Of a stretch of 64,000 bases of DNA, positions 38,755 through 54,635 are shown in pieces. Origin of the DNA: Candidatus Kapaibacterium sp. (GTDB taxonomy: Bacteria > Bacteroidota > Ignavibacteria > Kapaibacteriales > WFXC01); the NCBI GenBank assembly GCA_015490805.1, contig WFXC01000044.1, positions 1 to 64,000 of the forward strand. Reading direction: 5' to 3'. The position numbers were made by a program, and so were the translations under genes. A model generated the notes under the pieces. The model made no database searches. It was not told the origin of the DNA and was given only the letters and a program-made list of their open reading frames with translations. How positions within the stretch are numbered: position 1 is the stretch's first letter; each line of letters starts with the position of its first letter.

Positions 38755-38997
38755 CACGGCTTCTCCTGTTTATTAGACTTTATGATAGTTCTCGCTTGCT
38801 GCGACTAAAGCAGGAAACCGCTGAGCAATGTCTCTGATTGACAAATTCACTCATTTTCATAGCAATGGGCATCCGGAAAGGAATTTTTGTTGAGTATCAA
38901 TTCACAGAAACTGCTTTTACTTTCCCACTAAAAGGTCATTCGCACCATTTCGTTGAAAAGCACCCATCTGGCGCTCTGTAACGCTCGATTTTAACTC

Positions 38998-39026
38998 TAT
39001 ATACACGTAAGCGCTGAAATTTTTGC
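38998..39026 (-). promoter_or_regulatory. 29-bp bipartite promoter element, copy A
   Basis: On the minus strand it reads GCAAAAAT-N12-GTGTATATA and points to the thioredoxin/propeller gene starting at 38754. The 240-nt leader holds two short frames (16 and about 30 codons) that I cannot support as genes. Spacing is identical to the six other copies. Confidence 0.65.
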
Positions 39027-39070
39027 GATAGGTGTAAAGTACCCTGACAAAATCTGCCATTCCCCACCAT

Positions 39071-39094
39071 TGGAAGCGCGCGCTTCAGCGTGCA
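39071..39094. repeat. Single GCGCGC-TTCA-GCGTGC palindromic module
   Basis: One isolated copy of the TTCA-loop hairpin module lies between promoter element A and the end of the small frame at 39095. It could serve as the transcript end for the sigma factor gene. Confidence 0.5.
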
Positions 39095-39238
39095 CTACCC
39101 ATAGCAGGATACTCCTTTGAGTTGTGCAGGGCAAACCAGCGGAATGCTCACCCGTCCGGCATCGGCTCCTGCGAATACCACACCGATGTTGTTGTCGTGC
39201 TCAGCGCGTACGAAGCATATCCCTATGAGCATCCGCAT
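39095..39238 (-). CDS. Possible 47-aa protein overlapping the 3' end of the sigma factor gene
   Basis: A frame opens with ATG inside the last codons of the sigma gene (16-bp overlap) and runs to 39095. It contains GVVFAGADAGRVSIPLVCP and three Cys, two in the last dozen residues (VSCYG end included). The amino-acid mix looks protein-like, but no clear ribosome site is seen and nothing is recognised. If translated it would be coupled to the sigma factor and could be a small regulator; that is speculation. Confidence 0.3.
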   Translation of the reverse strand: MRMLIGICFVRAEHDNNIGVVFAGADAGRVSIPLVCPAQLKGVSCYG

Positions 39239-39912
39239 TCTTCATCGAGAGGGTCAAGGATAACGACAACGGGAAAGGATGATTCCGGGGGGGGGGGATA
39301 GTTTTTCCGGATATCCTGAACGATTTGCCGGTGCAGCCGGCTGAGATTGGAGGAGTCGATTTTCAATTTTTTGTAGATGGCTTCCGGGAATACTTCCTCC
39401 ACACTCCGGGCAATGCCAGCACTGATTTCCCGCAACGTCCACCCTTCGACCCGCAGCCACAACAGCGCCCATCCTTCCACCCCAAAATGGCTGCATACGT
39501 GTTTGCGGATTTTCTGGAGATACAGCCGGAGCACTACGCTGGTATCCCCATCTTCACCTACGATGGCGATGTTGTCATCCAGCGGTTCCACGACGCAACT
39601 GGATGAGCGACGGCAGCAGTTTTTCATCAGATTGTCCAGGGTGGTAAACACATACTGGTACAACTGCCCCAGACTTTCCAGTGTGGTCATCTTGCCCATC
39701 GTCCGCAGCCATGCCTCCTGAATCGCATCCTCGTAGTCTTCTTTGCAGAAGCCGGGATAGCGTTGCGGCAGTTTGGCGAGCCACAGCGTCGACCACTGGC
39801 GATACGCCTGTTGCACTTCGGAACTGTACCACCAGGAAGGAAGCGCCCCGTTCACTTTCTCCGGACAATTCGGTTCTGCGGTCTGCTGGCGTTGCGATGA
39901 ATCATTTGCCAT
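39223..39912 (-). CDS. ECF-type RNA polymerase sigma factor with Cys-Gly-Cys tail and poly-G tract
   Basis: The 229 residues have sigma region 2 (about 60-110: YEDAIQEAWLRTMGKMTTLE, LYQYVFTTLDNLMKNCCRR) and region 4 (about 140-210: GWALLWLRVEGWTLREISAGI, NLSRLHRQIVQDIRK). No anti-sigma gene adjoins. The C-terminal tail reads NYPPPPESSFPVVVILD and ends EECGCS. The four prolines are encoded by an 11-C run (39287-39297 as G on the plus strand), so slippage would replace the tail. The start has AGGAG 7 nt upstream. It lies among genes carrying the shared 29-bp promoter element and is the obvious candidate to read it, though its own promoter lacks the element. Confidence 0.85.
   Translation of the reverse strand: MANDSSQRQQTAEPNCPEKVNGALPSWWYSSEVQQAYRQWSTLWLAKLPQRYPGFCKEDYEDAIQEAWLRTMGKMTTLESLGQLYQYVFTTLDNLMKNCCRRSSSCVVEPLDDNIAIVGEDGDTSVVLRLYLQKIRKHVCSHFGVEGWALLWLRVEGWTLREISAGIARSVEEVFPEAIYKKLKIDSSNLSRLHRQIVQDIRKNYPPPPESSFPVVVILDPLDEECGCS
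39287..39297. repeat. Poly-G (11) tract inside the sigma factor gene
   Basis: Eleven consecutive G on the plus strand (C in the gene). Ten or twelve bases give different tails without the Cys-Gly-Cys end: twelve stops at 39254, ten runs on about 30 codons. Such tracts mutate often by slippage and are also prone to sequencing error. Confidence 0.9.
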
Positions 39913-40099
39913 CAGCGAGCTCCTGTATCTATGACTCTGTGATCATTGCTCGCCAGCAATCACATTAAGGTGGAAGCGAATTTAAGAAATTTTTCGGTAA
40001 TACGCAACAGGTCACAACAGACGCAAAAAAATTTACCAGAAAGCAGTATAATTTTCAGCCGCATCCGTTTCCTTATACTCCCTTATGGTCAGTTACCTG

Positions 40100-40960
40100 C
40101 TACCACAACACACCCAGTTGGGTTTCAACTTTATACTGTACTTTTTTGAGCACGCGCGGTTCATATTCCATCTGCACTGTCAGGCGAAGTCCAAGGAATT
40201 TCCAGAAGCGCCACTGGAGGAGTGATTTGAATAAGCAGCGCCACTGCTCACCGGCGTGGAGATTTGCCCGCCAGTTCCCCTGCAATTGGAGTCGCCACTG
40301 CCCTCCGTTAAGCTTCATTTGACTTTCGAGCGTTGTCTGGATTCCATATTCCGTATACCATCGTTCGACGCGGTCGCGTGTTTTCCGATTATCCGTGAGC
40401 TTTGTATGCCTGCGGGCTCTGATCTGCCGGAATTTCACCCCACCCTGCCATCCCAGAGATCCACCATCCCAGCGGTATCGATAGTGCCATCCCAGTTGCT
40501 GAGAGCTGGTCACAGGATCCCACCATTGGGCGACGGTCTGAAGTTCTCCACGTTTCAAAAGCATATTTCTCAACGGCGCGGTTTCAACGCCTACTGCCAG
40601 CAGCGGATTGACCTGCCATCCCAGCAACCATTCCCATTGCGCTTCGATGGAACAGTGATTTTCAGCAGGAAAGAAAAATTCTCCATCCTCCAGCTTGTGA
40701 TACACCCATTCCACATCCAGCTTTGCCAGGAAGCGCAGTTGCACAAATCCGATTTTCCATACGGGCTGAATCCGAACGCCCGTTCGGGATGCAATAAACA
40801 ATTGTTCTGCAACTTTCCAGTTCCGTGCAGCGCTCAGCATCAGCGTTGCATGCCCCTCGATCCAGGGCAACGACGTTCCTGCACTCGATGGAGGTGTTCC
40901 TGCCCCGGCAGGCAAGATCACCACCAGCATCAACGCCCAGCCAATGCACCATCCGTTCAC
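40100..40960 (-). CDS. Predicted outer-membrane beta-barrel protein
   Basis: A signal peptide (about 1-21) is followed by a chain of amphipathic strands with many Trp, Tyr and Arg, for example WHYRYRWDGGSLGWQGGVKF, and the protein ends VETQLGVLW with a C-terminal aromatic as outer-membrane barrels do. The layout recalls DUF3078-type barrels of Bacteroidota, but I cannot confirm that. Promoter element B lies 35 bp before the start. A decayed relative of its C-terminus (YEPxV followed by QY) remains on the same strand near 44065-44290. Confidence 0.65.
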   Translation of the reverse strand: MNGWCIGWALMLVVILPAGAGTPPSSAGTSLPWIEGHATLMLSAARNWKVAEQLFIASRTGVRIQPVWKIGFVQLRFLAKLDVEWVYHKLEDGEFFFPAENHCSIEAQWEWLLGWQVNPLLAVGVETAPLRNMLLKRGELQTVAQWWDPVTSSQQLGWHYRYRWDGGSLGWQGGVKFRQIRARRHTKLTDNRKTRDRVERWYTEYGIQTTLESQMKLNGGQWRLQLQGNWRANLHAGEQWRCLFKSLLQWRFWKFLGLRLTVQMEYEPRVLKKVQYKVETQLGVLW

Positions 40961-40994
40961 TTTGGCACGCTCTCACTGCACGAGTCTCTATAAT

Positions 40995-41023
40995 TATAAA
41001 CACTTCAGCGCTACAAATTTTGC
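40995..41023 (-). promoter_or_regulatory. 29-bp bipartite promoter element, copy B
   Basis: Minus strand GCAAAATT-N12-GTGTTTATA, the most divergent copy but with the same spacing. It ends 35 bp before the barrel gene. It lies back to back with copy C (27 bp apart), forming a divergent promoter pair. Confidence 0.55.
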
Positions 41024-41049
41024 GTCGGTGGTAAAGTGATCAGTGGTAC

Positions 41050-41078
41050 GCAAAAAATGCCGTTGTTATGTGTATATA
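41050..41078 (+). promoter_or_regulatory. 29-bp bipartite promoter element, copy C
   Basis: GCAAAAAA-N12-GTGTATATA, pointing to the 120-aa cysteine protein gene and the thioredoxin/propeller gene after it. A long hairpin leader begins only 5 bp downstream. Confidence 0.7.
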
Positions 41079-41082
41079 AGGG

Positions 41083-41191
41083 TAGAGAGGCTGGTGGTTG
41101 TTTTCTTCCACGACCTGCGTGTGGCAGTGTCCCTGCCCCGCTGCCCGCCGGGAAGTGTGAAGGAAGCAACGGGCAGGCACCAGCTTCTCTA
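41083..41191 (+). ncRNA. Structured 5' leader of the cysteine-protein cassette
   Basis: TAGAGAGGCTGGTG at 41083-41096 pairs over 14 bp (one G-T pair) with 41178-41191. Inside, CTGCCCG pairs with CGGGCAG (to 41176) and CCAC with GTGG. The fold starts about where transcription from element C should begin, so it would cap the transcript. It may protect the mRNA, control translation of the gene at 41236, or be a separate small RNA. I match it to no known riboswitch. Confidence 0.5.
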
Positions 41192-41235
41192 AGTAAAGTT
41201 ACATTGGAGTATGAACAAAGACAAGGATCTCAAAG

Positions 41236-41598
41236 ATGAAAACTCGCGAATATGGATACCTGGTAATTATGGTAAGCATTGGGCTTTTTGTTCATAGTAT
41301 TGTCTGTAAAGCCGAACGGGTAATTGAAATCCCAGGACAGTACGCAGTAACAGAGACGGTGATATGTGAGTGTGACATTGATGAAGATGGAGTACCTGAG
41401 CAGGTCCAGGTTACGGTGTTACGTTGTCAAGGGGATGGACCATACTGCATCCGAATCTTTCTTCGAGAACCTGGTGTACTTGCAAGGGCAGAACTTTATG
41501 ATGATGGACAGATAGTAGAAACGAAGCAAGGAGTATACTGCGGACCAGGACCCAGCGGTGATCCGAATGTAGATGCCTATTTTAAGGAAATCGAGTAA
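41236..41598 (+). CDS. Small secreted cysteine-containing protein (120 aa)
   Basis: A signal peptide (about 1-26, hydrophobic VIMVSIGLFVHSIV) leads to a mature part of about 94 residues with five Cys: CEC, then LRCQGDGPYC, then GVYCGPGPSGDPN. The family is not recognised. LRCQGDG..C matches LRC-stop-GEG..C of the small protein at 51656, so the two are probably related. AAGGA lies 8 nt before the ATG. A terminator-like hairpin follows, then the thioredoxin/propeller gene. The pairing resembles the arrangement of NVEALA-type peptides with propeller lipoproteins in Bacteroides; the Cys may be substrates for a partner thioredoxin-like domain (inference). Confidence 0.7.
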   Translation: MKTREYGYLVIMVSIGLFVHSIVCKAERVIEIPGQYAVTETVICECDIDEDGVPEQVQVTVLRCQGDGPYCIRIFLREPGVLARAELYDDGQIVETKQGVYCGPGPSGDPNVDAYFKEIE

Positions 41599-41611
41599 TA
41601 CGGTATGTCCT

Positions 41612-41640
41612 GCCCCCTCCTTATGGGGGCTTCTTTTTCT
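41612..41640 (+). terminator. Rho-independent terminator-like hairpin after the 120-aa gene
   Basis: GCCCCC-TCCTTAT-GGGGGC followed by TTCTTTTTCT. It stands between the small-protein gene and the propeller gene 30 bp later, so it would make the small-protein transcript more abundant, with read-through for the larger gene. Confidence 0.65.
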
Positions 41641-41669
41641 GTGCGCTGTAAACAAGAATGAGAGGAACT

Positions 41670-43457
41670 ATGAGGGTCAAAAAGCAGATAGTGCAGTGGT
41701 TGTGGTTGACCGCTATCTGCACGGTGTGCCTTTACTCGCAACAATCTGAACCATTGCAGTCGCAGAGTATCCTCAAGATTGCAAAGACAGTTTCTGGATC
41801 CTCCGGGCGGTATATTGCTGTCATTTTGTTTCAGCATAAAGTCTTCAATTACGCCTTTGGGATGATGAAAACAGTGGCTCAGACCTTGCAGTATCACCAC
41901 TTTCCGGGACCAGTGTTCGCAGTAATGCGGATGACCCGCCATTGGAGTGATCGAGCAATCGTACAGCGTGAATATAGTAAGCTATCAGTGCCTGTTGTGT
42001 TGGATACCTTTGGACTTTTCGAAGAACTCCAGATTCCTCTTCAGACCTTTCCTATACTCACAGTCTGGGACTCCACCGGTACACTGCGGTACTCTTCACA
42101 AATTCCTGCTGTACTGCAGGGTTCTATCTACCGAAAGCTTATCATGCGTTTGGATTCCCTGCCCTTTAGGAAAACCGTTGTTCGAAGCAAAGCGACCCAG
42201 ACCCAGTATAGCGATCCTTTTCGCAAGCACTTGCAAGCTTTGCCAACACTGGTGCCACAGGCACAAGTATTCTTGCAAGATGATAGTACAACGTACACAG
42301 GGCGATTACAAAGGCTACGATGTGCTCCTTCGGAACGCTTCATTGTTCTGGGAGATTTGGACCAGGAAGTAGTGCGAGTTTACCGTGCTGCCGACGGGAA
42401 AGAAATAACAACTATTACTACCACGCCCTGGCTACATCGATTGTTATCGCCTGTTCCTCTGGAAGCTCTAGATTCTTCATTCCATTCTTTGGGATTGTTG
42501 ACCCACTTTGCTGACTTCGGCACGTTCTATCCTACAACCAATACACTAATTGCTCATCACTTTTACACTGTTATAGACAGTGTGCTCATCCAGCGCAATT
42601 CCAACAAACAGCGACTTGACACGAACATTCGGTTGGGCAAACGCTATGTACTGGTGCGCTACACACCACCGTATGATTCCATCCACCATTGGGTTAAGCT
42701 GGATGCTCCAGATACCCCAGGCTATCTATCGATCCAATCTTTTATACCTACAATTTCACCGTGGGAAACTGCATTGTTCCCGGTTGATAACTGGGTGCAA
42801 CGAAACTCTCTCTCCGTTGTCGGGCTCGACGCTCCGACAGACCCTGCATCTGCTGAGTTTGAAGCCCACGATCCCCTGCTGTGGGAATTCAGTCTCCGTA
42901 GCGGGAAATTTGTTCGATCCTATGGTGATCTCAGTTACAACAGGAGTCTGTTGCGTATTGGATATTGGAACTCTCATCCCGCAGTTGATTGCGATGCTTC
43001 CGATTGTGCCTATCTGAATTACTATCACGACACATTGTATTTCATCCGATCCCAGACTGCGTATCCAATCGCTGCTTACTACACTTCTGCCGTATTGTAT
43101 CCCCAGCAGAATCAGGAGAATCCTATTCTCCAGATTGAGCCGAAGCAGAGAAAAGCGATGGTGAACTCTCTCTCACCGTTGCATCCAGTAGATCTCACCG
43201 TTGCGGATTCTTTGGTATCGATTGTATGGTATCACTTCGGCACTGGAGAAATAGTGTGGCAAATATATCATCGTATGCCGTTCCGCTTACTCAGGGAATA
43301 CCGCCTACCACCATCGCCGTTGGCTGCGCACTCGGTACTCCCAATGCCTCAAATCAAAGTCAGCAAGCAAATGAATCTATATCTTGTCGATCAATCGACA
43401 AGAAAAACGCTATTGTTGATCTATTCATATCCAAAAGAACGTAAATCCACAGGATAA
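41670..43457 (+). CDS. Secreted protein with thioredoxin-like domain and propeller-like region, CxxC lost
   Basis: It is the closest relative of the product starting at 38754, with shared segments along the whole 595 residues. A signal peptide (about 1-23) precedes a thioredoxin-like domain in which HKVFNYAFGMM replaces the CxxC site, while the cis-proline segment TFPILTVW remains. The C-terminal two thirds have propeller-like strands (VLGDLDQEVVRVYRAADGKEI). A loop with the DCDASDC cysteine pair is shared with the paralog (DCDTEDC). ATG at 41670 has AGAGG just upstream; ATG at 41658 is an alternative. It follows the 120-aa gene in the same cassette. Confidence 0.75.
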   Translation: MRVKKQIVQWLWLTAICTVCLYSQQSEPLQSQSILKIAKTVSGSSGRYIAVILFQHKVFNYAFGMMKTVAQTLQYHHFPGPVFAVMRMTRHWSDRAIVQREYSKLSVPVVLDTFGLFEELQIPLQTFPILTVWDSTGTLRYSSQIPAVLQGSIYRKLIMRLDSLPFRKTVVRSKATQTQYSDPFRKHLQALPTLVPQAQVFLQDDSTTYTGRLQRLRCAPSERFIVLGDLDQEVVRVYRAADGKEITTITTTPWLHRLLSPVPLEALDSSFHSLGLLTHFADFGTFYPTTNTLIAHHFYTVIDSVLIQRNSNKQRLDTNIRLGKRYVLVRYTPPYDSIHHWVKLDAPDTPGYLSIQSFIPTISPWETALFPVDNWVQRNSLSVVGLDAPTDPASAEFEAHDPLLWEFSLRSGKFVRSYGDLSYNRSLLRIGYWNSHPAVDCDASDCAYLNYYHDTLYFIRSQTAYPIAAYYTSAVLYPQQNQENPILQIEPKQRKAMVNSLSPLHPVDLTVADSLVSIVWYHFGTGEIVWQIYHRMPFRLLREYRLPPSPLAAHSVLPMPQIKVSKQMNLYLVDQSTRKTLLLIYSYPKERKSTG

Positions 43458-44064
43458 ATAAAGTTCTTGCTCTTTACAGAAGGTAGGCGGCAAAGCACTA
43501 TGTGCGTCGCTATGCTTTACCATACAGCACCTACGACGGTGTGCAAACAAAGCGGTATTCCGTGGCCAGCAATAACTGCGGGTGGATTCAGTAGAGTGTT
43601 GCTGTAGCAACGGTATATCGTTTCCGTGAACAAGCAGAAATTCTATATTTCAGCGCAAAAGAAAAAGCTGCTTCTATTCATTATCTTCCGCCATAGCTGC
43701 AAAACTAAATAGTTGGCAACGCGCTCGTCCCGCGGTTGAGACGAAATAATGAGTGCAGATGATATCGACGATCTCTGATCGCTAGTGTCTGAGCTGGGAT
43801 TCTGATTGCTGGCGCTTGTAGTACACGGTCCCTGGAAAATCTTTACTATAACACATAGCAGTTCCTGGCGAATTCTTGTTAGTATCCATTCCTCGATAGC
43901 TGTTCAGCACAGTGCCATTGTTCTTTCCAATGTCCATACAGAACTCCCAAAGCAGTTTATGAAGTTTTTCGAAAACCATCAAGCGCAAAATTCACAAACT
44001 CGCCGAAGCACTATGGTGCCTCCTGTTCCTCGGCTTTGGTACTGACATAGCATTACCGGAGCCT
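43458..44064. other. Gene-poor stretch between cassettes
   Basis: No frame with a ribosome site or protein-like composition is seen on either strand. A 68-codon minus frame ending at 43782 is not supported. The stretch probably holds decayed cassette sequence, as the following remnants show. Confidence 0.5.
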
Positions 44065-44290
44065 TCAATATTGCAGTCTTCGCGCTACCTGCGGTTCATA
44101 CTTCAGATTAAGAGAACGATCATCGGTCCCGGAACTACCAAGACTACTGATAGAGAATCCACTATCTAAAGCGTTGTTGTGCTTTGCCAACCGGATATTT
44201 GCTCGGAAATCCGATATCACTCTGTGCATCAGGATCCAGCCGCAAAGGAAAGTACCATTGCTTCATACCGTTTTTCAGGCATACTTGTCA
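44065..44290 (-). pseudogene. Remnant of an outer-membrane barrel gene
   Basis: The minus strand reads SLNLKYEPQVARRLQY then stop, matching the end of the barrel encoded at 40100-40960 (VQMEYEPRVLKKVQY). Upstream, two frames alternate (PLRLDPDAQSDIGFPS in one, SDFRANIRLAKHNN in another), which indicates a frameshift. No start or promoter remains. Confidence 0.45.
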
Positions 44291-44489
44291 CTCACTGAAA
44301 TAGGAATGACCCAAGCAAAATGCGGTGCAAAAAAGCGTATACTATCGTAAAGACTAACAGTTGTGTCTTGTCAGGTGTTGCTGCAGATAAAGTTCCTACT
44401 GGTAGGAGGATTGGAAGAAGCAGTGGACAGACAGTAGCTTCTGAGGTTCATTGAGATTAAGGGTTAACGTATCGATGCAGGAGGCAACA

Positions 44490-44636
44490 ATGAAACGGAT
44501 CTCTGTAATTCTATTTCTCGGGGTGATTCTCTGGGATTCCAAAGCTGCACTCACGGGTGCACTGTCTCTGCATAACATTGTATTCGATGGAAACTCTCAT
44601 TTTGAAGCTGTGTGTTTGCCTGGAGCTGGGAATTGA
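44490..44636 (+). pseudogene. Deletion remnant: signal peptide joined to a cassette 3' end
   Basis: A good start (AGGAGG, 6 nt before ATG) and signal-like residues (KRISVILFLGVILWDSKAAL) run for about 35 codons into sequence GGAAACTCTCATTTTGAAGCTG, which elsewhere is the last codons and downstream DNA of propeller genes (after 49069 and 51401). The frame then stops. It looks like a secreted-protein gene that lost its interior by recombination. It could still make a 48-aa peptide. Confidence 0.4.
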
Positions 44637-44725
44637 ACACTTCCGAAGGACCTCTGGAATTTCTCCCCCTGCGCCATTGGTGCCGCGCAAAAAATGCCGC
44701 CGTTAGGTGTATATATGTTGTGAAA
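44591..44725 (+). repeat. Cassette boundary repeat, copy D
   Basis: About 130 bp shared with 49070-49200 and 51404-51535: the tail of a propeller gene, the segment TGGAGCTGGGAATCGAACAC, TGCGCCATCGGTGCCGCGC, and the 29-bp promoter element. D and E stay similar for another 240 bp, into the small-protein gene. Confidence 0.75.
44687..44715 (+). promoter_or_regulatory. 29-bp bipartite promoter element, copy D
   Basis: GCAAAAAA-N12-GTGTATATA, ahead of a decayed small-protein gene and the 641-aa thioredoxin/propeller gene. Confidence 0.7.
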
Positions 44726-44964
44726 AATGAAAGATCAGATACTTGCGAGAAGCAAAAACAGATGTTTAGGAAGAGACAAGAAAAATCAGCTATTGATTGC
44801 TATCTGGAAAGTGGAACAATGGATGTTTATCAGTTTTGGGAGCACAGTCAAAATCAGGACACACATAGCCAGACAGCAGGATGAATTCTGGAATTATCTC
44901 CTGAAACCGATGTGGGCGAGCACTGGCAACTTCTCAAGCGTTTCCCCGGTATTTTTATCAAGTA
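44718..44964 (+). pseudogene. Frameshifted copy of the small cysteine-protein gene at 49263
   Basis: DNA is clearly homologous to 49195-49455. One frame encodes CYLESGTMDVYQ (intact copy CYLENGAKTMEVYQ) and another encodes STVKIRTHIARQQDEFW (intact STVKIKVRIARQQDLLW), so a single-base indel broke it. The 3' half with the later cysteines is lost. The in-frame 6-bp size difference before MDVYQ shows the upstream part was once coding. Confidence 0.6.
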
Positions 44965-44997
44965 AGCAGAGAAACGTTTACTAACTGCGGAGGAGTT

Positions 44998-46923
44998 ATG
45001 CAACAGCGTTGTTTTCGATGGTATGCGGTAGGTTTGCTGCTTGTGCTACCTGCTCTATTGATGGCACAGCAGAACAGTGAAGCTCAGGGAGCAAAGAAAG
45101 ATTCAGCAAAGCAACAATCGGTCGTTATATTACCTTCGCAGATTACGGTTCCTGATACTCTGCAACCTCTGATGTCAGCGTGGCTGGCAGAAATTTTTGG
45201 GTCCAATGTCCGCTCGCCTTTTGTTACAGTTGTACTCCAACCAGGCCTCTGTTCTCGGTGTGAAGCCTATCTTCCCCATCTCCTTGATATAACACTCCAT
45301 GTTGATAGTGCTCTGAAGAATAACATTGCCTTAGTTGTTCATTCTCTCTCTCCTGGCACTGTGGATATGCTGAAAGAAGAGTACCCTTATAGAGATTACT
45401 CTATCGTTCACTATGACTCTACAGGCATTATTGAAAAAATCGTTCCCAGCGGAATGCCCTATTACATTATCTGGGATGCGGCGGGAAAACCCCTGTATAG
45501 TGCTCTTCTCTTCGGACGGGTTGATATTGAGGAACTCCAGACTGTACTACAGCAGGCATTGCGCAACCGCCAGCCGTTAAATCTGACAGCCGAGATGCGA
45601 CTCCCGAAAAAAGTGAATTCTGCAGCCCAATGTACATTGGGGTTTCAATCGGACGGAGTATATCGCTGGTCTGCTCAGAAGGAATACGTACTGTCGAACT
45701 CATTTTTTTCGCTAGGGCGGTCAAGCATTACGGGTATTTTTCCTCAACTCCATCTTTTTGCATTTGAGACGGATATTCTACGGTCCTACGTTCTGTATAG
45801 CCTTGACAACGACAGCCTGTTCTGCATTCTGCAAATTCCTGAAGAGGCAATTCTCCAGCATATTAGCATTGATAGCTTAAGCGTTATTAGGATGAAACGC
45901 CTGGGATTATTACGTCCCATTCTAACCGGTGGACTACAAATTGCTCCATCTGCCACTGTCCAGGAGTTATACTTACCTCAAATCTTTTACGAGCAGAAAG
46001 AAAGCGGGGATTCAGTTATTGGTGCTTCTACTATTCAAAATATTGCTTTTCTCACCGTAGATCCTTTAAAGCAATGTTTAGCAATAGATACTCTGTTTCC
46101 TGTTCCCTTCGAAGAAGAGTATATAGGGGTTCTCAGTGATGTTTATCAAACACCTCTTCCTGATCTGACTCGCACCAAATTATTATACAGACTAACAAAG
46201 GGCGTTCCTTTTACTTCGTATGCATACCGAAAAGGAAGTATTCTCCGAGATCGCTTCTATGATTCCGCCTTCGCCTTCGCTCTCTATGACATCAATGCCC
46301 AACGTTTTACTATCCTGCCAATCAGGCTACCCGACGTTTATCGGCGCCTCAAAATTGGCTATGGTCCCCTGCTTCCTCATTCTGGATGTTTCCTGGATTC
46401 CAATCGCTATGCAGCCGTCTATCCCCTTTCTCCCTACCTCTGGATCTACGGTCCTCACACGATCGATACGATTCCACTCCGATCTTATGCGACCCTCAAA
46501 CAGCAGGTGCAGAAAATTGCCCGTGTGCTGCGCTCGGCGCATCAGGCAATTCGTGATACCAATGCCTTTTTTGAAAATTACAGCGAGATCGTTGATACGA
46601 CGAAATCGCTTCTGCAACTTGTTCTTATGGACATTGATCAAATCAATGACTCATTAATAGCTGTCTACTACAGAGTTCAATTACCCCAACGTAGAGCCTA
46701 TCGTTCTGGAGGAATAATGCCTTCGATATTATGCGAGCTTTACAACATACATACAAAGCAGTATCTGACTTCGTTTTCTGCTGGAACTACTCATCCTGGG
46801 AAGCAATGCGGTATTCTATGGTTCTACCACATTCCCGGAACGCCGTGGAATACCCACTGGTATCTGGTCAGTTGGGAAGGCAACCGGATGCGAGTTACGG
46901 AGTTCCACATAGACAGACAATAA
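44998..46923 (+). CDS. Secreted thioredoxin-like/propeller protein with CxxC
   Basis: The 641 residues begin with a signal peptide (about 1-23, VLPALLMAQQ). A thioredoxin-like domain follows with an intact CSRC (GLCSRCEAYLPHLLDI) and cis-proline GMPYYIIW. The rest, about 420 residues, has strand-rich repeats and resembles the propeller part of its neighbours weakly. Codon use is more A+T-rich than the flanking housekeeping genes. GGAGG lies just before the ATG. It is the second gene of cassette D, whose small-protein gene is broken. The role may be thiol chemistry on exported proteins (inference). Confidence 0.75.
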   Translation: MQQRCFRWYAVGLLLVLPALLMAQQNSEAQGAKKDSAKQQSVVILPSQITVPDTLQPLMSAWLAEIFGSNVRSPFVTVVLQPGLCSRCEAYLPHLLDITLHVDSALKNNIALVVHSLSPGTVDMLKEEYPYRDYSIVHYDSTGIIEKIVPSGMPYYIIWDAAGKPLYSALLFGRVDIEELQTVLQQALRNRQPLNLTAEMRLPKKVNSAAQCTLGFQSDGVYRWSAQKEYVLSNSFFSLGRSSITGIFPQLHLFAFETDILRSYVLYSLDNDSLFCILQIPEEAILQHISIDSLSVIRMKRLGLLRPILTGGLQIAPSATVQELYLPQIFYEQKESGDSVIGASTIQNIAFLTVDPLKQCLAIDTLFPVPFEEEYIGVLSDVYQTPLPDLTRTKLLYRLTKGVPFTSYAYRKGSILRDRFYDSAFAFALYDINAQRFTILPIRLPDVYRRLKIGYGPLLPHSGCFLDSNRYAAVYPLSPYLWIYGPHTIDTIPLRSYATLKQQVQKIARVLRSAHQAIRDTNAFFENYSEIVDTTKSLLQLVLMDIDQINDSLIAVYYRVQLPQRRAYRSGGIMPSILCELYNIHTKQYLTSFSAGTTHPGKQCGILWFYHIPGTPWNTHWYLVSWEGNRMRVTEFHIDRQ

Positions 46924-47453
46924 TAGCATTTTTGTCAGTGATTGGGGAAACATCCGTGAAAGATTATTCCCCGACGAATGCCAGATGCTATTTCTCCTAC
47001 TGACTGATGACAGCAGCGCAACTAATGATGTTTTCGGTTGCAGGGCTTCAGAAACGAGGTCACTTCCTCTTCCCCGTATCTCTGTCTTCCCGTTTCCCTT
47101 ACGGCTGAGATACGAGGATCTCCCAGGTCGTGGAAGGTACCTGACCTGTGAGGGATAGGTTTCAGAAATGGATTTTTTGTTGAAACAATGTGCAGAAAAT
47201 TTCGTTGTAAAGTGAGCACAGCCCGAAAACTATGCGATCGTTTCCTGTCTGCTGGAGTGCGTGGCAAAAGTAACTCACAAGAAGCTGCAAGCAATGCGAT
47301 AGTGTAAGCCACTGATTAGAATCGACAATGGAAAGTAAGATACTGAAGCGAAGATTGGTTTTGCGAAGAAACACTCTTTGTTCTTTCCTTCTCTGGTTGC
47401 TTGCAAAGACTTTCGGATAGGGACGCCGGAAGTATCACAATAGAGGAGTTCTG
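46924..47453. other. Gap of about 530 bp without the shared promoter element
   Basis: It separates two thioredoxin/propeller genes on the plus strand. No 29-bp element, terminator or convincing small gene is seen. Short frames (for example 39 codons starting ATGTGCAGAAAA near 47188) lack a ribosome site. The next gene must use another promoter or read-through. Confidence 0.45.
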
Positions 47454-49085
47454 ATGCGCACGTTCTGGCTTCAGCGGTACGGCAGCATCGCAGCCCTTGT
47501 AGTTTGCACAGTTCTCTTTCTGCAATGCTCTTCACCCGATCCCCAGCAGGAAATACTTCACCAGTGGGGATCGCAGCAGGCAGAGTTTGATCCTGCCCGC
47601 CCTACGGTTCTGTATGCCTTCGATGTTTCGACTTGCCTTTCCTGTGGATTGGTTGGGCTGAAGGCGCTTATTGAGCAGATTCATAAGCTTGGACTGGAGG
47701 CGAATGTTCTGGTTGTAGTGGCGTCGGATCAGCCGGGAGAGAGTCAGGTGCTGTGGGATCAGTTTCCACGTGATATGATCATCGAAGACACACTCGATGC
47801 GCTGAGAAATGTCTTTCAGGTCCAGACGTTTCCAACGATGCTGGTCATTGCACCCGATGGGACGGTGCTCCGAAAAATTCCCGATCCTGTGCATCACTTT
47901 CCCTCTGACGACGAGCTAAGGCAGCTTCTGGCACCTACTCCGCAGACTCTAAGCGAATTTCCAATTCATCGGTCCGGACCACGGACAATTCTTGCTCAGA
48001 TCGACGATGCCGTGTATCTGTCGCATCTGCAAACCAGCATCCTCCTTGATAAATCCCAGAATAAAATTTTCAGCCTTCATACTGGAACAGATTCGCTGTT
48101 TGTGCTGTGGAAACCAGCAGATTCTCTCCGATTTCGCCCTCCCTTTGCGCCGACAACCGCCATTCCGGATTCTCTATGGGCACGGTTCAAAGATGAATAT
48201 GGATACCCGTTTCTGACGGTCTACAATATCACCGGTGTTCGAGATTCGACTGTGATTATTTCCTTTTTCACCTCGTTTCCCAGAGATCCTGCTGCCGAAA
48301 CGCTCGATCTGGAAAGTCAGTTGGGATTGCTTTTTCTCCGCCTCCAGTCGCCACGTACTGCTCAACTCGATTCCGTGGTGGTGCTGGATGGCTTTCCTCC
48401 GAAAAACGAACAATTCTTCTTCGTGGGCAATCAGTTGTTAACCTTTGATTATACCGACAGTGTAATTACCGGGTGGGAGTATCGCGATGGGCAGTGGCAG
48501 GAGTTGCCATTCCATCTGCGTTTCAATCCATCAGAGCCAGCATCTTTCGGCAACGCTATTCGCTTTCCTCTTTATCCCGTTCCGCTGTCCAGCGGAGCAG
48601 TGCTCATCTCCCTGAAACTGGAATATCCCGTGTGGCTGCAATGGGATAGCACACAGCAGCAGATAATCGCAACACCCTGCTGCCAGGATCTTTTCTGGTT
48701 GCCACAGTATCGAGCGAAAATACACAAATTAGTTCTTTCGAAATTTGGAGAAATCACAGCCCTGAAACATAAGCTCGGATTAAAAATTCCAGCGAGAATT
48801 CAAGACTATATCAGTTGTCTGAGATTCCAAGATTCTCTGGTCATCGTGCTGGTGCCATTTGTCAAAGTTGACAGTGTTCGCCAGGTTGATATGGGAGTTG
48901 ATGTCAGTTCCATCCATCACCGATACGCTTTCATCTCCGCAAATTTCCCGAAACATCGGCGTGATACAATTAGGCCCATTCGGGTTGCAGTCGTTGCTGC
49001 TGATCCGACCCAGGTTATTGTATTAGCCAAGTGGAAAAGGATCGGGTGGAAGGGTTACCGCATCCCGCTGAGACTCTCATTTTGA
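47454..49085 (+). CDS. Thioredoxin-like/propeller exported protein, probable lipoprotein, with CxxC
   Basis: The 543 residues start with a hydrophobic signal ending VLFLQCSS, where the Cys may be lipidated. A thioredoxin-like domain (about 40-150) has STCLSCGLVGLKALI as active site and the cis-proline TFPTMLVIAPDGTV. The remainder is propeller-like and ends VAVVAADPTQVIVLAKWKR, a segment repeated in the orphan 3' end at 51249-51419. It is close kin to the product at 49604 (shared DQPGESQ, DPVH.FPSDD). AGGAG lies 5 nt before the ATG. Likely in the periplasm or facing the cell surface. Confidence 0.78.
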   Translation: MRTFWLQRYGSIAALVVCTVLFLQCSSPDPQQEILHQWGSQQAEFDPARPTVLYAFDVSTCLSCGLVGLKALIEQIHKLGLEANVLVVVASDQPGESQVLWDQFPRDMIIEDTLDALRNVFQVQTFPTMLVIAPDGTVLRKIPDPVHHFPSDDELRQLLAPTPQTLSEFPIHRSGPRTILAQIDDAVYLSHLQTSILLDKSQNKIFSLHTGTDSLFVLWKPADSLRFRPPFAPTTAIPDSLWARFKDEYGYPFLTVYNITGVRDSTVIISFFTSFPRDPAAETLDLESQLGLLFLRLQSPRTAQLDSVVVLDGFPPKNEQFFFVGNQLLTFDYTDSVITGWEYRDGQWQELPFHLRFNPSEPASFGNAIRFPLYPVPLSSGAVLISLKLEYPVWLQWDSTQQQIIATPCCQDLFWLPQYRAKIHKLVLSKFGEITALKHKLGLKIPARIQDYISCLRFQDSLVIVLVPFVKVDSVRQVDMGVDVSSIHHRYAFISANFPKHRRDTIRPIRVAVVAADPTQVIVLAKWKRIGWKGYRIPLRLSF

Positions 49086-49200
49086 GGCTGTTTGTTTGCC
49101 TGGAGCTGGGAATCGAACACTTCCGAAAACTCTCTGGAATTTTCCCTGCGCCATCGGTGCCGCGCAAAAAATGCCACTGTTAGGTGTATATATGTTGTGA
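49070..49200 (+). repeat. Cassette boundary repeat, copy E
   Basis: Same unit as at 44591 and 51404. Here it begins with the true last codons of the gene ending at 49085, which shows how the repeat is built: gene tail, spacer, promoter element. Confidence 0.75.
49164..49192 (+). promoter_or_regulatory. 29-bp bipartite promoter element, copy E
   Basis: GCAAAAAA-N12-GTGTATATA, followed by a 70-nt leader and the small cysteine-protein gene. Confidence 0.7.
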
Positions 49201-49262
49201 AAAAGCAAATCAGATACTTGCGAGAAGCAAAAAACAGCGGTTCAGAAAGCGACTAAGAGGAA

Positions 49263-49601
49263 TTGGTTGTTTATTGCTATCTGGAAAATGGTGCAAAAAC
49301 AATGGAAGTTTATCAGTCTGAGAGTACAGTAAAAATCAAGGTACGCATAGCCAGACAGCAAGATCTACTCTGGAAGTGTTCTTTAGAACCAGGACAGAGA
49401 GTAACGATGACTTGCCAGTGGGTTCCTTGCTGTTTTTATCAAGTAACTGCTTCCTGTGTTTGGGGATTTACCGATCCTGAAAATGGGGAGGGAATTGGGT
49501 GGACCGATGCAGAAGTATGCTTCCATCCGGATACTCGTACCGGGTATGTGAGAAGTTTGCCAGATACGCAGGAATTCCATCGCTACAGCGAGTGGGAATA
49601 G
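49263..49601 (+). CDS. Small cysteine-rich protein (up to 112 aa) of cassette E
   Basis: The frame opens after a TAA at 49254. It can start at TTG 49263 (112 aa) or ATG 49302 (99 aa); neither has a well-spaced ribosome site. Conservation with the decayed copy at 44718 continues upstream of the ATG with an in-frame indel, which favours the longer form. Eight Cys are present, including WKCSL, MTCQWVPCCFYQ, ASCVWG and EVCFH. No signal peptide is visible, unlike the small proteins at 41236 and 51656. It is not recognised. The next gene starts 2 bp after its stop, so the pair is translationally coupled. Confidence 0.55.
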   Translation: MVVYCYLENGAKTMEVYQSESTVKIKVRIARQQDLLWKCSLEPGQRVTMTCQWVPCCFYQVTASCVWGFTDPENGEGIGWTDAEVCFHPDTRTGYVRSLPDTQEFHRYSEWE

Positions 49602-49603
49602 GC

Positions 49604-51247
49604 ATGTCAAAACAACCAGTAATGGCAGTTTCAAAGGGAGCTGCTAGCAAGCAGCTCCCTCTTTGTAACTCCCTCCTCCTGGCAATTACCTTATACCTGC
49701 TTTCTTCTTGCACGTTCTTCACTTCGGATTCCAATCCTGTACAACGGGCGATTCAGCAGTGGGGATCGAGTGTCCAAAATTTTGCACCATCGTATCCGAC
49801 GGTTCTCGTGGCGTTTGATATTCAAAGTTGTATATCCTGTGGTGCGTTAGCGATCAAATTAATCCAGGACAAAATAGCTAAATACAATCTTGCTACAAAT
49901 CTTTTGATCGTTATCGCCGTGGATCAGCCCGGAGAATCACAGGCTGCGATTCCATCAAATTTCCACAACATAGTGGTTGAAGATACAAATGGTACCTTAG
50001 AAAAATTCTTTGACGTTCGCAATTATCCCACGTTACTCATTGTCGATAGCAGAGGAAAAATCCGCTATAGGCTTTTTGATCCCGTTCATAATTTCCCGTC
50101 GGATGATATTCTGCTGCGATATTTAGCCCCTATTCCCATCGATCTATCCTACCGCGGAAATTGCCTTCAGTCTGCAGATCAGAAATCAATTCTTATCGAG
50201 ATTACGGATGTCAGTGCCCACCCTTCCCAGTCTATGGTATATGCAGTGGACGGAAAGCAAAATGCTCTTTTCTCCATCACTCCTCACACTGCACAGATGC
50301 TCAAAATATGGAAGGCGTCTGATTCACTCCGATACCATCCAGATTATCAGTCACAACTTTCTGATAGTCTTGATTGGTGGGAAAAGCTCCGTCAGCAAGT
50401 TCCAATTGCCTTTGCAAAACTGGAGGCGGTAGTCTATGCATCGTCGTCAGTGGTTGTACTCCAGGGTTCACTATTGCGACGGAAAGGGCGGGCTGTCTTA
50501 CAGGTGCCATCCTTATTCTATCTTTCCTCTTCGCTTCCCCCCAGGGTTCTCAGCCTCCGATTTTTGCCGCACATCCCTGGCAAGCTGGTAAATTTCCAGA
50601 TTTTGCAGAATCAACTTCTGGCATTGTCTGCTTCTCCCGACCAGTTAGCAGTGTATTCCATATCGCCGCAGGATACTTTTCGCAGAGTTGCTGATTTGCC
50701 ACAGGATACTTTGCTGCCATCAATAATACAGCGTCGGGTATATAGCGATCCATCTTGTGCCATCAACCGCACTACCGCTTTGATTTTCGACTTAAAACTT
50801 CCCAGTATGGTGATGCTCGTCTTTGCTCCTGATACCCTGAGAATTGACACAGTGTACAGAATTCCGCTGACTGGAACATTATATCGGTATCGGCTGCGGT
50901 ATTTTCGGAAATTTATTCAATCTTTCGGTGAAATCCAGGGCATTTTATCCAGCCTCCAGAAAAGTTCTTCACCCGTATGGTTGGATTCTCCCGTCTCGCT
51001 TTCTTTCCTGAATGATACGGTATGGGTTGTATCAGTTCCTTACACTGACAAGCGTACGAATGTCCCCCACCTGGTGGTGCAATGGTACACCTTGCGAGGA
51101 TTCTTCAAAGAACGGATCTATAGCTTTGATCAGGAAGCTCGCACCGACCGATATGTGACAGGCTCTCTGCTTGTGAGTAACCATCGCCTGTACTTCGCAC
51201 TCAAGTGGAAAAAACGCGGATGGTATGTGTATCCCATCCCTACCTGA
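49604..51247 (+). CDS. Thioredoxin-like/propeller lipoprotein with CxxC
   Basis: The 547 residues have a signal with lipobox LLSSC near residue 35. The thioredoxin-like domain has QSCISCGALAIKLI and the cis-proline NYPTLLIVDSRGKI. The propeller part contains strands such as LLALSASPDQLAVYSISPQ. It is a paralog of the product at 47454. ATG at 49604 or 49622 may start it. A perfect hairpin in the codons for the signal region could act as an attenuator. It would be anchored in the inner or outer membrane facing the periplasm or outside. Substrate unknown; the adjacent cysteine protein is a candidate. Confidence 0.78.
   Translation: MSKQPVMAVSKGAASKQLPLCNSLLLAITLYLLSSCTFFTSDSNPVQRAIQQWGSSVQNFAPSYPTVLVAFDIQSCISCGALAIKLIQDKIAKYNLATNLLIVIAVDQPGESQAAIPSNFHNIVVEDTNGTLEKFFDVRNYPTLLIVDSRGKIRYRLFDPVHNFPSDDILLRYLAPIPIDLSYRGNCLQSADQKSILIEITDVSAHPSQSMVYAVDGKQNALFSITPHTAQMLKIWKASDSLRYHPDYQSQLSDSLDWWEKLRQQVPIAFAKLEAVVYASSSVVVLQGSLLRRKGRAVLQVPSLFYLSSSLPPRVLSLRFLPHIPGKLVNFQILQNQLLALSASPDQLAVYSISPQDTFRRVADLPQDTLLPSIIQRRVYSDPSCAINRTTALIFDLKLPSMVMLVFAPDTLRIDTVYRIPLTGTLYRYRLRYFRKFIQSFGEIQGILSSLQKSSSPVWLDSPVSLSFLNDTVWVVSVPYTDKRTNVPHLVVQWYTLRGFFKERIYSFDQEARTDRYVTGSLLVSNHRLYFALKWKKRGWYVYPIPT
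49637..49661 (+). terminator. Hairpin inside the start of the lipoprotein gene, possible attenuator
   Basis: GGGAGCTGCT-AGCA-AGCAGCTCCC is a perfect 10-bp stem followed by TCTTTGT. It lies soon after the small-protein gene, at the same relative place as the terminator-like hairpin at 41612. Confidence 0.45.
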
Positions 51248-51248
51248 T

Positions 51249-51419
51249 TACGAATTTGCCCCTTTAGTGGTGAATCTGCCTGAGCATCAACGGAAGGATC
51301 AGAACAGCCCCGTACAGGTTGCAGTCGTTGCTGCTGATCCGACCCAGGTTATTGTATTAGCCAAGTGGAAAAGAGAAGGGTGGAAAGGATACCGCATCCC
51401 GATGAAACTCTCACTTTGA
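51249..51419 (+). pseudogene. Orphan 3' end of a propeller gene
   Basis: Starting just after the stop of the previous gene, one frame reads QVAVVAADPTQVIVLAKWKR and ends RIPMKLSL-stop. This is nearly identical to the end of the gene at 47454 (RVAVVAADPTQVIVLAKWKR, IPLRLSF). It has no start of its own. It is left from recombination between cassettes. Confidence 0.7.
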
Positions 51420-51535
51420 GGCTGTTTGTGTACATGGAGCTGGGAATCGAACACTTCCGAATAACCCTGGAATTTTCCCTGCGCCATCGGTGCCGCGCAA
51501 AAAATGTCGTTGTCAGGTGTATATAAGGTTTGAAG
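51404..51535 (+). repeat. Cassette boundary repeat, copy F
   Basis: Third copy of the gene-tail/spacer/promoter unit, beginning in the orphan 3' end. After the promoter element it diverges from copies D and E. Confidence 0.72.
51497..51525 (+). promoter_or_regulatory. 29-bp bipartite promoter element, copy F
   Basis: GCAAAAAA-N12-GTGTATATA, 131 bp before the small secreted protein gene interrupted by TAG. Confidence 0.7.
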
Positions 51536-51655
51536 AGGAAAAGCAGAGAATCAGAGGATAAAAGCGGTGATTTTCCTTCCATCCGGCAACTGGAAGGTAA
51601 TCAGTGCTGACTCTGTATCCAGAAATAAAAAGTCGATCAAAAGCTGGTGAGAGTG

Positions 51656-52075
51656 ATGCAACGGCGTAACTGCGAAACCGCGCTTCCCTTCGCTGTAATC
51701 CTTGCTGCAGCACTCCTTTTCGCCGCCATACTTTCCGACAGTATGGCGCGGGTTATCGTTGAGAAGAAAGGTGGAGGACTTAAAGGATACAATAAGGTTG
51801 TGGAGGTGCACGAGGATTCGCTGCATTCTCTCCGCTGTTAGGGGGAAGGCTGGGAAGCGTGTGCGTGGACCCTACCACCAGATGCACATCCCGGATTTCC
51901 CGAACTCATTGACTACGCGGAAGCCCGGATTGCGGAAGGCAAGTTGACCGGGACGTATTCTCAGAAATTTGACGGGAAACTGTGCTTTGTGAAGTGGACG
52001 GCACAGGATCTTGATAATCTCCGCATTGAGCTCTGGACGGAAGATGAAGAAGCATCCCAAAGAGAGCAGGAATAG
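51656..52075 (+). pseudogene. Small secreted cysteine protein interrupted by an in-frame TAG
   Basis: The ATG opens a signal peptide (LPFAVILAAALLFAAILS) and a mature part ending HSLRC, then TAG at 51839, after which the same frame continues for 78 codons (GEGWEACAWTLPPDAHPG, KFDGKLCFVKW) to a second stop. The bases before and after the TAG are equally protein-like. LRC-stop-GEG aligns with LRCQGDG of the product at 41236, so the TAG stands where a Gln codon is expected (CAG to TAG). Either a recent nonsense mutation, read-through, or sequence error. The downstream gene begins 1 bp after the final stop. Confidence 0.65.
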
Positions 52076-52076
52076 A

Positions 52077-53381
52077 GTGCAAAAACTACCAACGAGCGTG
52101 CGGATTTACCGCAAGGCGAATAAGTTCTCGTGCTACTTCTATCTGCGAAAACTACCAACGAGAGTACGGATTCACTGGATTTGCTGGCTGTTGTGCTTCA
52201 GTGTTGCGATGCCGAGTTTTGCACAAACACCGCAGGCGGGGAAGGTTCCTCGCCTGTTTCGTCTTGTCCGGCTGGTACCCGTTCCCGACCATCTGGAAAT
52301 CGACCCGTTCAAGCGGAGTTTGGCTGTTACCGACCGCTCCCTGTGGCTGTATCCCGGCAGTCAATTGTGGGCACAGTCGGAGTGGCTGTACATTTACCGC
52401 TTCGATACTCGCCAGTGGGATTCCATAAAAATTGCTATCCGGGATTCTCTGCTGATGCGCAATCTGCTGGATGCCTGGCGGATCTCCGTTGATAATGCGA
52501 TTCCCGCACTGATGTCCGATGACACGCTGGTGATTGTTACTGCTGGAATGCGAATGTTTCTGTGCACCATTCAGCAGCAACCATCGACGGGTGAGAAGAT
52601 CCTGGTGCGGTGAAAAGAGCGCAAGATCTACAGCAGTCTATGGGAACAGCCGGTGGTATTCCCCGACGCTATCGTTCTCCTCCACCACGGGATCGGAAGG
52701 AGCCAGTTGTACGATTCCTCCCATACCCTGGTGGAGCGTTATGATCTGCGAACCGATTTTCTCCAGCGGATCTTCTTCCCGGATCCTGAAGGATTCTGGT
52801 TTCTGTACTTCTACCCACCCTATCCACCAGATGTCTGTTCGTGGGGCATTGCCGTTTCGGAGATCACGCGATACCGTATCCGCTTTTACAACTGGGATGG
52901 CACCCTGCATTCTGTTCTGGAGCATCCGAACGAACGATGGAACGGAAGCGCTTTGCTCCGGACGCTGCACGACACATTGCTCAGCACCGTGGAGGAACAG
53001 GGTGGTGTGGCGGCAATCCGGATGCTGCGCCCGCTGTTCTACCGGAAGGTGAATTCCATCCAGCGAGCGGCATTTCTGAACGATTCCCTGCTGCTGGTGA
53101 TATGGTGGCAGCAGGACACGATACCGGAAACTCCGGTCAAACGCATAGCGGATCTATGGCAACTGCAATCTAATGGTCAGTGGCGGATGATCGCAGGAAA
53201 CATTGCCCTGCCCCGATCGATCGAGCAAGCGCGCGAGTCACCCATTCCCCTGTGGTCCACCTGGTTCGTCGTCAGCAATGGATTTATTCTGCTGCCGGGA
53301 GAAATGCCGGGGACAAAAGGATCAGGCATTTTCATCTGGAGCCTCGATCCGCAGGCGATTCGGCAACTGCGCCAGTGGTGA
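52077..53381 (+). pseudogene. Propeller-like exported protein interrupted by an in-frame TGA
   Basis: A GTG start follows AGGA by about 6 nt, 1 bp after the small-protein frame. A signal (WICWLLCFSVAMPSFAQ) and strand-rich repeats (WLYIYRFDTRQWDSIKIAI) run to TGA at 52611, and the same frame continues without break to 53381 (VVFPDAIVLLHHGIG, RYRIRFYNWDGTLHSVLEH). There is no thioredoxin-like domain. The region before the signal carries a 27-bp direct repeat (52080 and 52146, 24 of 27 identical) that duplicates KLPT.VRI. Together with the TAG in the previous gene this suggests that the whole cassette has lost function, unless both stops are suppressed. Confidence 0.65.
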
Positions 53382-53638
53382 GCACTGTCCCCTTACCCTC
53401 TCTCTGGAGAGCGTTCCCTGTTCAAAAATGAAGGGACTGCACAAAAACCAGTTGCCGCTTCTGGTGAGAGAAGAAGTTCCTTACTGACAAAAGCCAGTCT
53501 CTTGCAGCATCTCCTTTTTTCCTTCCGGGAAAAAGTTTTCCGCACACCGAAGGGGCAAATCTGGTCCGATCACGCCTGCTCCTGTTTCTCCGTGCCCGCT
53601 CTTTTTCCCCTGCAGGTGAAAAAATTGTCTGCGAGTTC
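53382..53638. other. Gap before promoter element G
   Basis: No gene supported. A 107-codon frame on the minus strand (53422-53745) covers the promoter and start of the next gene and is rejected. Confidence 0.5.
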
Positions 53639-53667
53639 GCAAAAAATGCCGCTCTTATGTGTATATT
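53639..53667 (+). promoter_or_regulatory. 29-bp bipartite promoter element, copy G
   Basis: GCAAAAAA-N12-GTGTATATT, 38 bp before the coiled-coil protein gene: the closest plus-strand placement to a start codon. Confidence 0.65.
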
Positions 53668-53705: not shown

Positions 53706-54635
53706 ATGCGGCAGCACTCTCTTTTCTATCGCTCCATTTTCGCACTGTTTTTCGGCTTTCTCTTCGTAGCCTCTACGTTCAGTTCTCGCGAGCAGCGCTG
53801 GGCTCAGGAAGTATCCGCAACAACCGCTCTATCAGAGGATTCGCTTCAACCGCACATCTTTTTCATTCTCCCTGATGGTAGAATTCTCCGGGACACGCTC
53901 CCTGAGAAGTACAGAGCGCAGATTGAACAATGGATGAAACAGGCGCCGCAAAGGTACAAGCAGGGACTGGAAGCGGCGCGCAAAGCGCAGAAAATGCTTG
54001 AGCGGCTTTCAGGTTCTCTCAAGAAAATGCAGCAGGATTTCAAAGTGCCACCAGAGCCATCGGATATACAGAAGCTGTGGGAAGAAGCGCTCAGGCAACA
54101 CAAAAGAGCGATGCAATGGTATCGGATGATGAAACCGAAACTGGATTCAGCGAACCTGTTTCTAAACGAACTTATTGATCCTGATGCCGCCACGCAAGCC
54201 ATTGAGCAGGCGCAGGATGCACTTGACCAGGCAACGCAGTGGTGGGAGCAATTTCCCGGTACGCCGCCGGAGCTTCCCGAAGGTATCGACGAAGTGGAAA
54301 TCGCCCGTCAGTATCAGGAACTCGCCAGCCAGCTCTACGACTATCTCGAAGACCTCAATGTTTTGCAGCAAGCACAGGAGCAATACCAGGAGGCACAGGA
54401 AGCGTTGCAGACATTTCAGGAGCAATTCAAGGAAGCAGAGCAGTGGCTTCAGCGCTACGAAAAAGCACAACGGGAATACGGGAAGGCGATGGAACAATGG
54501 CAGAAATTCCGCCATCCTGATGCACTGCCTCCAGCAGCACCTCCAGCGGTGCCGCCAGCGCCATCCCCGACATCGCCTCCAGCAGTACCGCCGGCGCCAT
54601 CCCCAGCGGTGCCGCCAGCACCACCGCAGCAGTAA
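53706..54635 (+). CDS. Secreted coiled-coil protein with Pro/Ala-rich C-terminal tail
   Basis: The 309 residues have a signal peptide (about 1-32, FALFFGFLFVASTFS), a long Gln/Glu/Ala-rich coiled coil (about 70-270; for example QAQEQYQEAQEALQTFQEQF) and a low-complexity tail of PPAVPPAPSP repeats ending PPQQ. AGGAG 7 nt before ATG fixes the start; an in-frame GTG at 53682 is not needed. Not recognised. It could be a periplasmic or surface structural protein, the tail spanning peptidoglycan (inference). It is the last gene carrying the shared promoter element. Confidence 0.75.
   Translation: MRQHSLFYRSIFALFFGFLFVASTFSSREQRWAQEVSATTALSEDSLQPHIFFILPDGRILRDTLPEKYRAQIEQWMKQAPQRYKQGLEAARKAQKMLERLSGSLKKMQQDFKVPPEPSDIQKLWEEALRQHKRAMQWYRMMKPKLDSANLFLNELIDPDAATQAIEQAQDALDQATQWWEQFPGTPPELPEGIDEVEIARQYQELASQLYDYLEDLNVLQQAQEQYQEAQEALQTFQEQFKEAEQWLQRYEKAQREYGKAMEQWQKFRHPDALPPAAPPAVPPAPSPTSPPAVPPAPSPAVPPAPPQQ

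Follow-up and report, generated by a model that had tools for sequence, protein, structure and literature searches.

A fixed-spacing 29-bp element around a divergent ECF-type sigma gene of Candidatus Kapaibacterium and its gene-less tandem array, a candidate sigma sponge

The clustering of a two-box, 29-bp element around a gene for an ECF sigma factor raises the question of what reads this element, and whether the sites form a local sigma regulon with -35 and -10 boxes as a sequence-only reading had proposed. The window denotes the whole stretch of DNA that was analysed, namely the 64,000 nt at positions 1 to 64,000 of the forward strand of contig WFXC01000044.1 (Candidatus Kapaibacterium sp., GCA_015490805.1; a genome of 2.67 Mb in 48 contigs). 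A pattern scan of the window located the seven proposed sites at the same coordinates and on the same strands:

38998 to 39026, minus strand: site 1, GCAAAAAT-N12-GTGTATATA, upstream of the gene for a 599-aa exported protein at 36958-38757
40995 to 41023, minus strand: site 2, GCAAAATT-N12-GTGTTTATA, 34 bp 5' of the OMP-like gene that lies before the sigma gene; a candidate promoter for autoregulation
41050 to 41078, plus strand: site 3, exact match, upstream of genes for 120-aa and 599-aa exported proteins
44687 to 44715, plus strand: site 4, exact match, upstream of the gene for a 641-aa exported protein
49164 to 49192, plus strand: site 5, exact match, upstream of the gene for a 582-aa exported thioredoxin-like protein
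51497 to 51525, plus strand: site 6, exact match, upstream of an exported 61-aa ORF (51656-51841) and then the next gene
53639 to 53667, plus strand: site 7, GCAAAAAA-N12-GTGTATATT, 38 bp 5' of the gene for a 309-aa coiled-coil exported protein (53706-54635)

Four of the sites matched the pattern exactly, two had one mismatch and site 40995 had three; the chance expectation for the scan was 0.12 sites and none of 100 shuffles reached seven. The constant gap of 12 bp between the boxes was also borne out, as GCAAAA-N14-GTGT[AT]TA occurred seven times at the stated gap and never when the gap was varied between 4 and 25, and the five exact occurrences of GTGTATATA in the window all lay inside sites. 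Every site was intergenic and pointed to a gene start no more than 340 bp away (7/7), compared with 8% of random placements in the cluster that faced a gene start within this distance.

The genes that the sites face, along with the sigma gene and its neighbors, are as follows:

36958 to 38757, minus strand: 599-aa exported protein p599a, 46% identical to p599b
39223 to 39912, minus strand: divergent ECF-type sigma factor of 229 aa, in which region 2 is recognised and the putative region-4 HTH carries an insert of 16 aa that its paralogues lack
40100 to 40960, minus strand: 286-aa exported, possibly outer-membrane (OMP) protein; first gene of a likely OMP-sigma transcription unit
41236 to 41598, plus strand: 120-aa small exported protein, 52% identical over 31 aa to the product of the matching small gene in another family
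41658 to 43457, plus strand: 599-aa exported protein p599b, with a predicted thioredoxin-like domain and beta-propeller
44998 to 46923, plus strand: 641-aa exported protein with a CxxC motif (CSRC) and a weak link to the p599 family
47454 to 49085, plus strand: 543-aa lipoprotein-like protein with a CxxC motif
49499 to 51247, plus strand: 582-aa exported thioredoxin-like protein, start probably at 49604

The predicted structures of the 599-aa proteins matched a quenching protein (7djk), human NHLRC2 and BF0058 of Bacteroides fragilis, and the 582-aa protein matched Thioredoxin_8 at an E-value of 2.8e-4, a match that falls short of the curated cut-off. Midway through the cluster, the gene at 47454 lacks a site of its own immediately 5' to it in this genome. 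The region 52011-53381 is a single frame of 456 aa in two related genomes, G001 and G002, and is split here into two frames of 200 and 242 aa, which may reflect an interrupted gene or an assembly error. Short GC-rich repeats (GCACGCTGAAGCGTGC and similar) lie between genes at 36545-36627, 27182-27227 and about 39060, and at about 8560 of locus L024 on contig C27.

The assignment of 39223-39912 as an ECF sigma gene was right, although marginal by profile. The product scored 24.1 bits against Pfam Sigma70_r2 (cut-off 24), had no Pfam match in region 4 and fell under the cut-off for TIGR02937; profile searches found no further domains in its 229 aa. Two paralogues in the same genome (L057 and L060), themselves divergent ECF-like sigma factors, share a like arrangement with region-4-like ends, and the window sigma factor aligns with their region 4, but with the 16-aa insert and low model confidence in that part. 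The predicted structure was poor overall (pLDDT 66) and had no match in the PDB below an E-value of 0.1, although the weak best matches were mostly sigma factors and the N-terminal part weakly matched the N-terminal domain of SigE. Sequence comparison with PDB chains gave nothing useful. Overall, the product is accepted as a divergent ECF-type sigma factor.

The arrangement resembles autoregulated ECF (group IV) regulons in the small sigma gene, the neighboring targets, the two-box promoter of fixed spacing and the candidate autoregulatory promoter, but differs from them in the lack of a recognised anti-sigma gene, the unusual region 4, boxes of GCAAAA/TGTATA in place of AAC/CGT (PMC8103513) and the array of promoter-like units without genes described below. 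The profile search recognised no anti-sigma domain in the neighboring proteins; a co-encoded anti-sigma factor is not obligatory for the ECF family in current definitions, and autoregulation is found in about 55% of the ECFs for which targets have been predicted (PMC8103513). Autoregulation through site 40995 is plausible from the layout of the locus, but need not be exclusive: the gap of 187 bp between the OMP-like and sigma genes holds a block of about 58 bp directly upstream of the sigma gene (39912-40099) with a single change relative to G001, and the sigma gene may therefore have its own, second promoter.

The element was traced beyond this genome by its exact pattern, which in a collection of 84,980 species was found in only two others, G001 and G002, both Candidatus Kapaibacterium metagenome-assembled genomes of the same genus. 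The comparison at genus level thus involves three metagenome assemblies. In G002 both contigs end inside the cluster, leaving the sigma interval in an assembly gap, and a true absence of the sigma gene from G002 was therefore not concluded. Site 38998 and the gene at 36958-38757 are missing together from G001, whereas G002 retains the end of this gene. At site 40995 both boxes are identical in G001 and the spacer has changed. Across four orthologous sites compared with the sister species, the boxes had no changes at 68 positions, whereas the spacers had 11 at 48 positions (p = 3e-5) and the flanks 46 at 240 (box versus flank, p = 4e-6). The box-spacer contrast is the cleaner number because the downstream flank of site 49164 is rearranged between the species and supplies 19 of the 46 flank changes. 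As the boxes are frozen at orthologous sites while spacers and flanks drift, the comparison indicates that they are under selection.

This result replaces an earlier argument, namely that the sites are not simply copied DNA because their N12 segments differ. Within this genome that argument is weak because the DNA flanking three sites (44687, 49164 and 51497) is duplicated over 73-156 nt at about 80-90% identity; moreover, the five plus-strand N12 segments are alike (TGYCRYYBTYAK). The duplicated flanks, together with the loss or gain of gene blocks between sites and the shuffling of spacers in the array described below, would fit a neutral family of short tandem repeats, propagated by duplication and gene conversion, of which some copies happened to end up in front of genes. 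Nevertheless, such a family is improbable given the frozen boxes, the exact orientation toward genes, the confinement of copies to the cluster and the array, and the retention of the array in its place in three species.

The boxes were compared with known promoter classes. The tRNA genes of the genome carry TTCGT[TCA]A, mostly near -31 and on the sense strand only (9 versus 0.21 expected), and GTGTATA is upstream of none of them. The element was therefore rejected as a housekeeping promoter. Separately, TTCGT[TCA]A upstream of tRNA genes (for example at L073, L086, L087, L091 and L096) is a candidate housekeeping promoter box for Kapaibacterium. When NGCAAA is taken as the -35 box and TGTATA as the -10 box, the spacing of the element is 16 bp, which is the usual spacing of ECF promoters, as in the sigma-W type TGAAAC-N16-CGTATA. 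The boxes themselves, GCAAAA/TGTATA, differ from the common ECF promoter boxes AAC/CGT (PMC8103513), which counts against an ECF promoter.

The neighborhoods of related genes also bear on which factor reads the element. Relatives of p599 are present in two other families, and in one of these (genomes G051 and G040) two genes come after the p599 homologue, one for another exported protein and one for an ECF sigma factor; in G051 a gene for a small exported protein, similar to the 120-aa protein over a short stretch, lies before the homologue. Because an ECF sigma gene recurs beside p599 homologues in another family, this neighborhood supports a functional link between the p599 family and ECF sigma factors, as judged from gene order. 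The element was not found at the p599 clusters of other families, which have no such repeated element. It is unlikely that the window sigma gene is merely a neighbor and that a different factor, either another sigma factor or a DNA-binding activator or repressor, reads the element. The genome does encode other divergent ECF-like sigma factors (L057 and L060), region 4 of the window sigma factor is atypical, and the -35 A-tract has by eye a partial inverted-repeat character. However, all sites outside the array lie within 15 kb of the sigma gene, they are asymmetric, directional and at promoter distance, and the recurrence of an ECF sigma gene beside p599 genes in another family again argues for the sigma factor.

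Thus, the element, 29 bp long or about 42 bp when the downstream part is counted, probably represents the promoters of a single alternative sigma factor, and the ECF sigma factor encoded at 39223-39912 is the likeliest candidate. The geometry, orientation, between-species footprint, non-housekeeping box, joint loss of gene and site, and ECF sigma genes beside target homologues elsewhere together make a dedicated ECF regulon likely. The proposed regulon is not purely local, however, because a different contig carries the element as a tandem array without genes. The whole-genome scan that the sequence-only reading had suggested was run as a profile search in the three genomes and found no sites outside the sigma cluster and the array up to E = 10. 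The earlier statement that there is no copy elsewhere therefore holds for the window, but genome-wide there is one further locus, an array of 14 tandem units of about 97 bp:

6995 to 8319 of locus L024 (contig C27): tandem array, in the order radA, tRNA-Ser, array, convergent hflC-like gene

The units are spaced at 88-106 bp, the canonical unit starts with GCAAAAAWTYGCYCGCTTRNGTGTATATAAGAGTAGAAAGCC, and all share one orientation, toward the 3' end of hflC. The element occupies the first 42 bp of each unit, which comprise the 29-bp element and a conserved 13-bp downstream part; likeness of site 41050 to the units likewise extends beyond the -10 box. These 42 bp carry 1.6-1.7 bits per position and both flanks about 0.5, with sharp borders, and the mean pairwise identity between units is 84.5% in the element and 58.6% in the spacer. 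The spacers are shuffled between units and species, whereas the 42-bp element is retained. In three of the 14 units GCGGATAATAAA replaces GTGTATATAA, always with a different spacer type, and this form is confined to the array. The GC-rich repeat noted above also adjoins the array end. Both other species of the genus have an array in this position, of at least 12 units in one and about 16 in the other; contig ends interrupt it, and the array ends are thus broken in two of the assemblies. A search of 58 further genomes in the order did not find it, nor were tandem repeats seen beside hflC in other families. A 20-nt stretch at another contig start (L106:1-20) is Tn5/Nextera mosaic-end sequence, an adapter remnant in the public assembly.

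The sigma-regulon reading alone does not explain this array, which contains no gene, serves none that was seen and has no conserved RNA body. A tandem coding repeat was rejected, as the period of 97 is not a multiple of 3. A mobile or phage origin was also rejected, the single isolated viral match, inside an ORF, being taken as chance. There is no skew switch on the array contig, and an origin, terminus or partition array was rejected on this ground. More broadly, tandem units of regular length with A-tracts, and a -10 region that resembles the dif core by eye, recall a recombination, segregation or replication element of the dif, iteron or parS kind, yet this is highly improbable: GC skew is unchanged along the contig, the same sites occur singly upstream of a gene set, and no recombinase or partition gene was seen beside the array.

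The main rival to a sponge function would make the array a bank of genes for small non-coding RNAs, the short transcripts of which act as regulatory RNA or interfere with the convergent hflC gene. The units hold a complete promoter element with the conserved 13-bp part downstream, all point one way, toward the hflC 3' end, and some can form a short hairpin just past the conserved part. Against this, conservation is lacking in the would-be RNA body (58.6% on average between units), many units have no hairpin or one no better than shuffled sequences give, and no terminator-like sites occur on the sense strand. A conserved RNA structure was rejected, as hairpins are present in some units only, and an RNA bank is rather unlikely.

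Given the footprint size of RNA polymerase, the spacing of 88-106 bp leaves room for one polymerase on each unit. Because each unit would fit one bound polymerase, the array would most readily act through binding, and because spacers shuffle while elements stay, selection appears to act on binding and not on a transcript. In self-activating or autoregulated systems extra binding sites alter the threshold and promote bistability, as seen in modelling and experiment (PMC9725139). These titration effects, the conservation of element but not spacer and the one-polymerase units are the grounds on which a sponge for sigma holoenzyme is preferred, and this function is possible, if tentative. In the promoter reading set out above, which is the more probable part, the sigma factor would read a -35 region of GCAAAA(A/T) and a -10 region of (G)TGTATATA at ECF-like spacing and drive a genus-specific set of exported proteins of thioredoxin-fold and beta-propeller type. 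Through site 40995 it would probably drive its own transcription unit, a positive feedback. As a sponge, the array would titrate the sigma holoenzyme, setting a threshold and sharpening the self-activating switch.

Different sigma factors compete with one another for polymerase, and decoy sites are a common device in modelling and in synthetic biology. Decoy binding-site arrays, or DNA sponges, have been engineered (PMC7826281, PMC7686491) and sequestration has been treated in theory (PMC9725139). By analogy, the many gene-less copies of a regulator's putative binding site would be expected to exert titration and a threshold here; unlike the engineered decoys, this candidate for titration is natural, chromosomal, conserved in place within a genus and made of putative sigma promoters instead of transcription-factor operators. 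Eukaryotic rDNA has tandem spacer promoters in a Pol I system that adjoins the genes served. The mouse rDNA spacer promoter is discussed in PMC5536353. The likeness is a gene promoter repeated in a non-coding array, whereas the present case is bacterial, and array and putative target genes lie on separate contigs. In E. coli, promoter islands are irregular and of housekeeping type. The array shares with them dense promoter-like clusters with little or no coding output (PMC11661796), but is a regular tandem array of one alternative promoter class. A limited search of the open-access literature yielded no known example of a conserved natural gene-less array of alternative-sigma promoters.

As a whole, a natural chromosomal sigma sponge, in which about 14 complete alternative-sigma promoters without genes are kept by selection in one genus, titrate holoenzyme and tune a self-activating regulon of exported proteins, is put forward with reserve. 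Should the array bind holoenzyme, promoter titration would have a natural example. For an uncultured group of bacteria the element supplies a putative promoter motif, and a candidate target set is assigned to a sigma factor that is otherwise poorly recognisable.
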